Below are positions 44,201 through 45,345 of a stretch of 64,000 bases of DNA, one piece after another. Location of the stretch: NCBI RefSeq assembly GCF_002210345.1, contig NZ_MWQI01000001.1:434001-498000 (forward strand), given 5' to 3'. The DNA comes from Fibrobacter sp. UWB4 (GTDB lineage: Bacteria; Fibrobacterota; Fibrobacteria; Fibrobacterales; Fibrobacteraceae). The notes below the pieces were generated by a model, which worked only from the letters and a program-made list of their open reading frames with translations, did not search any database and had not been told where the DNA came from. Within the stretch, counting starts at the first letter, position 1; every line of letters starts with the position of its first letter. Position numbers and translations under genes: made by a program.

Positions 44201-44338
44201 CTACGACGCGCCAAACAGATGCGATAAGAACGAATATACGGCGCTGCCTATAATGATAAGGGCCAATATTATCAGAATATGCTTCCAATTGAGCAACGCA
44301 AGCAAAAGATCGGTTAGAAAATTAAATAGAAATCCCAT
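44201..44338 (-). CDS. Small membrane protein, 45 aa
   Basis: This previously uncalled small gene encodes MGFLFNFLTDLLLALLNWKH followed by a hydrophobic ILIILALIII segment and a short GSAVYSFLSHLFGAS tail. GGAAGGAG lies 4-5 nt before the ATG, one of the best ribosome-binding sites in the window, which argues strongly for translation. It is in the same direction as, and 46 nt downstream of, the cold-shock/barnase fusion gene, so they may share a message. Whether it protects against, escorts or is unrelated to the nuclease is unknown. Confidence 0.7.
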   Translation of the reverse strand: MGFLFNFLTDLLLALLNWKHILIILALIIIGSAVYSFLSHLFGAS

Positions 44339-44384: not shown

Positions 44385-45137
44385 CTAATTTCCGAATTCT
44401 ATCTTGCTGAATGATTTGTAGTGATCGGTGGTGTAATAAATGTTACAGCCGCTACTATAGACGAGTCGGTTTGTACCGCGATTGTCTCCAAAGTAATCGA
44501 CATCTGCTTCGTAGTAATACGCTGGCGGGAGTTTACCCTCGCGATTGTCAAAGTAGTCGCCGCCAATCATCACGCCGAGCGTTGTGTGCGGATTGAAATT
44601 CCATTTCACAAAAGTTTTGCCAGTCTTTTGTTCGTAAAGCTTTTTACCTTCGCTCTTGGTGACATAATAGACCGGCAGGCGATCGTTGTCGCAGATGTAT
44701 TTTGCAACGTGGAGCCTCGAGGTGTATTCCTTTTCGGCGGGATTTTCTTTTAATAGGCAGACTTTTTTCTTGCGGGGTGCATCATCGGGGGTTGTGTAAA
44801 CTACGTATATGTCGAATGCGAATGCCAACGCGATGCATATTGCGGCTATTATTGCAATCTTGGATTTTTTGGCCTTACGATAATTTTTGTGTGCTGAGGA
44901 GGTTTGGGCTTGCTCTTCTCGTGAGGCAACTCCTTCGAGTAATCCTTTTTCGATTCTTGCACCTTTCTCTGTTTTGCCGAAGCTGCAAATGATGATTGTG
45001 TCGCCGACTTTAGGCGGTCTCACGGGATGCCCTAACGCAGAAATATGGACAAAGTATTTTGTCCCATTTGCGGTTGCAAAACCGAATCCTTTTTCTTCGT
45101 TCCATTGCGTGACGGTCGCTTTATTTGTGATGGGCAT
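44385..45137 (-). CDS. Cold-shock domain, membrane segment and barnase-type ribonuclease fusion
   Basis: This 250-residue three-part protein has residues ~5-68 as a cold-shock domain (ATVTQWNEEKGFGFATA with RNP1 KGFGFA and RNP2-like KYFVHISAL). Residues 84-93 are basic and 94-114 form one membrane helix, so the C-terminus should be outside the cytoplasm. Residues ~138-250 match barnase: K161, E210, R220, R224 and H239 align with barnase K27, E73, R83, R87 and H102, and DNREGKLP matches the guanine-binding loop. From E210 to H239 the alignment has no gaps. It should be a guanine-preferring endoribonuclease in the periplasm or at the surface. Cys at 127, 149 and 231 could form a disulfide. No barstar-like gene is adjacent. 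Confidence 0.9.
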   Translation of the reverse strand: MPITNKATVTQWNEEKGFGFATANGTKYFVHISALGHPVRPPKVGDTIIICSFGKTEKGARIEKGLLEGVASREEQAQTSSAHKNYRKAKKSKIAIIAAICIALAFAFDIYVVYTTPDDAPRKKKVCLLKENPAEKEYTSRLHVAKYICDNDRLPVYYVTKSEGKKLYEQKTGKTFVKWNFNPHTTLGVMIGGDYFDNREGKLPPAYYYEADVDYFGDNRGTNRLVYSSGCNIYYTTDHYKSFSKIEFGN

Positions 45138-45204
45138 GGGGAAACCTTTTGTTGTTGGACTTTTTTAATGTAGCAAAGAATTTTTTTGCTGATGAATCCG
45201 GGGT

Positions 45205-45325
45205 GTTAGGGGTGGAGCCCCTAGGAGTAGGGGTAGCGGAAGACTTGCCCTGGAAGGAGGTGCCTGCTCGGTGGCGGGCATGACAATTGGGCAAGGCTGC
45301 AGCGAGGGGGAGGCTTCCCCCTCCA
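45205..45325. repeat. GC-rich intergenic repeat region with REP-like hairpin
   Basis: It contains GGAGCCCCTAGGAGTAGGGG, a REP-like TGCCTGCTCGGTGGCGGGCATGACA unit (outlined) at 45261-45285, and GAGGGGGAGGCTTCCCCCTCC. Its minus strand matches the repeat at 21171-21240. It fills the gap between the barnase fusion and ilvC. Confidence 0.65.
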
Positions 45326-45345
45326 GTCCCCTTTTTTCTCATTTT

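Follow-up and report, generated by a model that had tools for sequence, protein, structure and literature searches.

How can a rumen bacterium of the genus Fibrobacter carry a barnase, an RNase expected to be lethal when active in the cytoplasm without its inhibitor, on the same polypeptide as a putative nucleic-acid-binding domain and a membrane helix? The question is raised by one gene in a 64,000-nucleotide stretch of the Fibrobacter sp. UWB4 genome (hereafter the window), whose coding codons run from 45137 to 44388 on the minus strand and whose stop codon occupies 44387-44385. An earlier note, made from the DNA letters, had described the product as a single 250-residue protein with a cold-shock domain (CSD), a helix and a barnase in that order, and this order was upheld by Pfam, by matches to solved structures and by hydropathy. 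In the Pfam search of the whole protein the Ribonuclease match is significant, the CSD match is weak, an ETRAMP match over the helix stays below its cut-off, and nothing further is found.

Table 1. Parts of the fusion gene and its product, in window positions
Feature	Position	Strand	Basis
Fusion of CSD-like domain, membrane helix and barnase, 250 aa	44388..45137	-	ORF, Pfam, solved-barnase matches, orthologs
CSD-like domain, residues 1-70	44928..45137	-	Weak Pfam match, RNP conservation, model
RNP1, KGFGFA	45075-45092	-	Inside CSD-like domain
RNP2-like, KYFVHIS	45039-45059	-	Inside CSD-like domain
Basic linker, residues 71-93, RKAKKSK immediately ahead of helix	44859..44927	-	Charge table
Membrane helix, residues 94-112	44802..44858	-	Hydropathy and charge table
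Linker, residues 113-137, predicted extracytoplasmic, poorly conserved	44727..44801	-	Ortholog comparison
Barnase-family RNase domain, residues 138-248	44394..44726	-	Pfam, solved-structure match, family alignment
K161, equivalent of barnase K27	44655..44657	-	Alignment
Guanine-recognition loop, residues 194-204, DYFDNREGKLP	44526..44558	-	Alignment
E210, equivalent of catalytic base E73	44508..44510	-	Alignment
R220 to R224, equivalents of R83 and R87	44466..44480	-	Alignment
H239, equivalent of catalytic acid H102	44421..44423	-	Alignment
C149, barnase position 15, co-varies with C231	44691..44693	-	Family alignment
C231, barnase position 94, putative disulfide partner of C149	44445..44447	-	Family alignment

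Sequence comparison confirms residues 138-248 as a barnase-family domain with an intact-looking active site. Residues 148-246 match the Pfam Ribonuclease family (PF00545) with an E-value of 3.9e-14 and 53.4 bits, above the gathering cut-off of 24, and residues 144-246 match solved barnases (E 1.3e-15). K161, E210, R220, R224 and H239 align with barnase K27, E73, R83, R87 and H102, and DNREGKLP aligns to the barnase guanine loop, in agreement with the earlier claim of an intact active site. In the family alignment, all 63 barnase domains have the catalytic E, R, R and H, and all 24 fusion or TM-type rows have the K161 equivalent; the guanine loop NREG, retained in the window protein, keeps its N in 24, its R in 22 and its E in 21 of those 24 rows. 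The assignment rests on these alignments because the full-length AlphaFold2 model, built on a shallow alignment of 10 close orthologs, is poor (pLDDT 45.9). Its barnase domain has a pLDDT below 65 throughout and below 50 over much of its length; fold comparison of this model returns CSD and other OB matches at residues 1-67 and does not list barnase, a result that is uninformative against barnase.

The N-terminal domain is CSD-like, with a match that is real but weak. Residues 6-35 reach 18.8 bits against the Pfam cold-shock domain (PF00313), below the cut-off of 27, and we therefore use the name CSD-like; of the earlier cold-shock assignment, the RNP1 and RNP2 motifs stand and are kept in orthologs, with F18, G19, F20, F29 and H31 invariant across the 10 close ones. 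In a single comparison, an Aeromonas protein (P0002) whose own CSD clears the Pfam cut-off at 32.2 bits shares 40% identity with the window protein over 47 residues (E 9e-10). Residues 1-77, modelled on their own, give a beta barrel (pLDDT 65). The structures closest to it are those of the Bacillus cold-shock protein CspB (Z 6.6) and CspA (Z 6.4), though Z values of at least 6 are also reached by further OB folds, among them IF-1 and the phage spike protein gpV. Compared with solved structures, a profile of the CSD alignment finds ribosomal protein L14 best (E 0.03) and cold-shock proteins next, and is not decisive. A Pfam CSD search of the nearly complete genome that contains the window found no other cold-shock domain and no classical CspA-type protein.

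We examined the helix and its flanks for the orientation of the two domains. The best 19-residue hydrophobic window is residues 94-112 (mean hydropathy 2.58), and the poor full-length AlphaFold2 model places the helix, at low confidence, at 93-111. Six Lys/Arg residues precede the helix of the window protein and four follow it; the excess before the helix recurs in every fusion row, typically 4-7 against 1-4, so that by the positive-inside rule the N-terminus is predicted to face the cytoplasm. Cysteines at barnase positions 15 and 94 are both present in 54 domains and both absent in 8, the sole exception being a frameshifted copy (L050), and this shared presence and loss suggests a disulfide between C149 and C231 and therefore an oxidising compartment for the barnase domain. 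The genome encodes a DsbA-family protein; a genome search found no VKOR. As had been noted before, no barstar gene adjoins the fusion gene, and none was found anywhere in its genome. Of 41 Fibrobacter genomes, a single one has a barstar-family gene, and that gene lies in an unrelated context; beside an Aerococcus barnase, barstar is the next gene. From the charge distribution, the co-varying cysteine pair and the near-absence of barstar in the genus, we infer that the nuclease lies outside the cytoplasm and the CSD-like domain inside, as the earlier note proposed. Once exported, the nuclease would not need barstar.

Searching for the same domain order elsewhere by co-located CSD and barnase matches, we found that, of about 80 Fibrobacter genomes, 19 encode full-length orthologs; two sister genera contribute one genome apiece (G154 and G167), and the remainder of 168 Fibrobacterota genomes yielded no further fusions. 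Outside Fibrobacterota, a search that detects close relatives only found no CSD-barnase fusions; viral contigs and phage records held no relatives, and plasmids gave barnase-domain matches only, all without a CSD. No CSD-barnase protein was found in open-access papers, and the barnase version of the CSD-TM proteins is apparently undescribed and was found here only in Fibrobacteraceae. A twentieth Fibrobacter genome (G031) contains an in-frame, internally deleted copy of the fusion (L049, 2195-2521, minus strand), in which the CSD is fused straight to the final 36 barnase residues and the helix and catalytic Glu are gone; it is probably a decayed gene.

Close orthologs share one locus, flanked by ilvC and an SDR gene. 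At eight of the nine close loci, ilvC and the window's SDR or MBL gene flank the fusion on opposite sides; at the ninth (L006) ilvC alone was found, and at L008 the SDR gene was undetected. Among close-ortholog pairs, residues 2-70 and residues 138-248 mostly give dN/dS values of 0.05-0.1, and the linker and helix give higher ones; the most divergent ortholog pairs are saturated. The CSD-like and barnase domains are thus both held by strong purifying selection, and the low dN/dS together with the intact frame speaks against a pseudogene. The L003 ortholog has low synonymous divergence from the window in the CSD and a helix segment of another type, a mosaic appearance that suggests recombination. 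The fusion gene is followed by a hydrophobic ORF of 45 aa (window 44201-44338, minus strand) whose ribosome-binding site is good; this ORF also follows the fusion at L003 and L009 (72% identity) and is missing from the other close loci; it is not a universal partner of the fusion gene. Upstream of the gene, a dispersed repeat (window 45190-45345) recurs in this genome as 40 or more partial matches; three other copies match over 120 bases at 80-89% identity.

A barnase that is tethered or placed outside the cell proved less of an oddity in this clade than first thought, as most Fibrobacter genomes also encode a barnase lipoprotein (L042 in the window's genome). The N-termini of Fibrobacter barnases without a CSD end, as judged by eye, in lipobox-like motifs, mostly followed by serine-rich linkers, and many of these lipoproteins have an insertion in place of the guanine loop that the fusions retain. 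One lipoprotein barnase, L050 in genome G027, is split by a frameshift. In a tree of 58 barnase domains, made by a short search with SH-aLRT support only, the fusions group with two TM-only barnases (support 92) and almost all lipoprotein barnases form a separate branch (support 84), with the divergent lipoprotein L112 outside both; on this tree the fusion barnases have a single-clade history. The TM-only pair, L018 (1516-2079, plus strand) and L107 (151-780, plus strand), carries a short lysine-rich tail in place of the CSD, and because it is nested inside the fusions (support 97 and 98), the two probably descend from fusions by loss of the CSD. The design element common to all these barnases would be export of the RNase.

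Neither is the front end exotic, as the earlier note had it, since both Fibrobacter and many Proteobacteria have CSD-TM joined to an Excalibur domain; of 301 other proteins reported with the CSP-Excalibur architecture, 298 are proteobacterial (PMC4679880). Two Fibrobacter genomes (G005 and G023) encode the same CSD-TM front end followed by Excalibur (38.4 and 36.5 bits, cut-off 22), and a third such protein was recognised by sequence in G146. Using tblastn with one Fibrobacter CSD-TM-Excalibur protein, we matched 97 plasmid records, 10 of which cover at least 80% of it (from Aeromonas, Vibrio, Aliivibrio and Thiodictyon); Acinetobacter proteins account for many of the other matches, and the one checked (P0003) is a CSD-TM-Excalibur protein. 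Other Fibrobacteraceae relatives consist of CSD-TM only, some without RNP1. Short CSD-TM proteins of 114-121 aa that lack an ectodomain are found at L039 (1501-1842, plus strand), L046 (1352-1693, plus strand), L084 and L085; RNP1 has been lost from the L039 and L046 proteins, neither of which matches a Pfam family. The window protein has a CSD-like front end and membrane helix as in CSD-TM-Excalibur; at its C-terminus the Pfam search found no Excalibur, and barnase stands there instead. The CSD-TM front end has the look of a module that takes different ectodomains, barnase among them: the CSD-TM-X chassis is already known, and its barnase variant is apparently new.

We consider it probable that the protein is a signal-anchored, periplasm-facing RNase of guanyl type on this chassis, which probably scavenges or clears RNA. 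The CSD-like domain would remain in the cytoplasm, with the basic stretch and helix 94-112 serving as a Sec signal-anchor that is not cleaved. Exported and probably locked by the C149-C231 disulfide, the barnase domain would work in the periplasm, cleaving single-stranded RNA at G. Barstar would be dispensable with the nuclease translocated while being made. The job would be to scavenge RNA, or clear it from the envelope, in the rumen, alongside the lipoprotein barnase that this genome also encodes. Of the three functions suggested in the earlier note (a surface RNase for scavenging, an effector released by proteolysis, and a device linking RNA binding inside to cleavage outside), a surface or periplasmic scavenging RNase would fit best and, by likeness to other exported RNases, would be the most economical; the neighbours of the fusion gene are not nucleotide-uptake genes and lend it no gene-context support. 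Release of the barnase by proteolysis is possible. RNA, perhaps membrane-proximal mRNA, is the probable ligand of the cytoplasmic domain, which may hold mRNA at the membrane, sense RNA, or be dispensable, the last because two relatives have lost it.

The fate of the helix separates this reading from an unlikely alternative, in which the N-terminal region would serve as an unusually long signal peptide. Signal peptidase I would then cleave in the later part of the helix, freeing a soluble periplasmic or secreted barnase and leaving a CSD-TM stub in the membrane. Many orthologs do have a small-x-small motif 12-14 residues into the hydrophobic core (AFA in the window protein, AIA, AVS or LIA in others), but the hydrophobic stretch continues beyond it and the motif is unclear in the sister-genus rows L075 and L081. 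On a broader proposal, which we regard as improbable, CSD-TM proteins as a whole would be RNA-linked trans-membrane proteins whose ectodomains can be swapped, and Fibrobacteraceae would have gained an RNase, so that RNA handling inside is physically tied to RNA cleavage outside. A trans-membrane device linking RNA binding by the cytoplasmic CSD to periplasmic cleavage, for example in the control of RNA uptake or export, also strikes us as improbable. The equal purifying selection on both domains of one polypeptide and the repeated pairing of CSD-TM with ectodomains speak for such coupling, but two TM-barnases kept the RNase and lost the CSD, which argues that coupling is not essential; some CSD-TM relatives, moreover, have no ectodomain and have lost RNP1, and no transport gene is adjacent.

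The 45-aa membrane ORF, present after the gene here and in two relatives, bears on whether the protein could be an antibacterial effector with an immunity protein other than barstar, and barnase domains do serve as toxins in polymorphic toxin systems, Fibrobacteres included (PMC3482391). We hold this to be very improbable, however, as the ORF is present at only 3 of 10 close loci, an export or repeat domain and a conserved neighbour are both absent, and in the close orthologs L001 and L002 an opposite-strand SDR gene lies about 50 bases downstream with no intervening gene. The lack of a conserved neighbour also speaks against a toxin-antitoxin pair, and a defence system was set aside after PADLOC gave no match. 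A fortuitous or artefactual join of two genes has practically no chance of being correct: the related genomes are mostly metagenome bins, but independent bins and the near-complete 10-contig genome G134 all contain this frame, both end domains have low dN/dS, and the close orthologs occupy one syntenic position. The assembly error that the earlier note had allowed for is refuted by the full-length orthologs in other genomes, whose recurring conserved frame rules out an assembly join.

If the periplasm-facing, signal-anchored reading is true, barnase, the textbook secreted RNase with a cytoplasmic inhibitor, also exists in an inhibitor-free form threaded through the membrane from an RNA-binding domain in the cytoplasm. 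The uncharacterised CSD-TM-X family would thereby gain a member with an assayable enzyme, making the purpose of the tethered CSD directly testable.

Among known systems, the combination of CSD and Excalibur is a published architecture, and a CSP-DUF1264 fusion is listed in the same work (PMC4679880). The proteobacterial CSD-Excalibur proteins resemble the window protein in having an N-terminal CSD, a basic linker, one hydrophobic helix and a C-terminal ectodomain, and the Fibrobacter copies (L043, L044 and L098) have a CSD homologous to that of the window. The ectodomains differ, barnase being a catalytic RNase and Excalibur a small calcium-binding motif, and the window CSD is more diverged from CspA. 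In CSD-DUF1294 membrane proteins, which we take the DUF1264 listing to mean, a CSD is likewise joined to a membrane segment, but that segment is a multi-helix domain and there is no nuclease. Polymorphic toxins differ in their toxin export, repeat and processing domains, which Pfam did not find in the window protein, in line with the empty PADLOC result. Barnase and binase, the extracellular guanyl-specific RNases of Bacillus (PF00545), share the domain, the catalytic residues and the guanine loop, whereas the domain described here is tethered through a membrane helix to a CSD, has two extra cysteines and belongs to a genome without barstar. The Fibrobacter barnase lipoproteins, such as L042, have a barnase domain mostly 53-65% identical to it, carry the cysteine pair in most cases and share with the fusions a genus from which barstar is almost absent; they differ in having a lipobox-like signal and serine-rich linker where the fusions have a CSD and helix, and often an insertion at the guanine loop.
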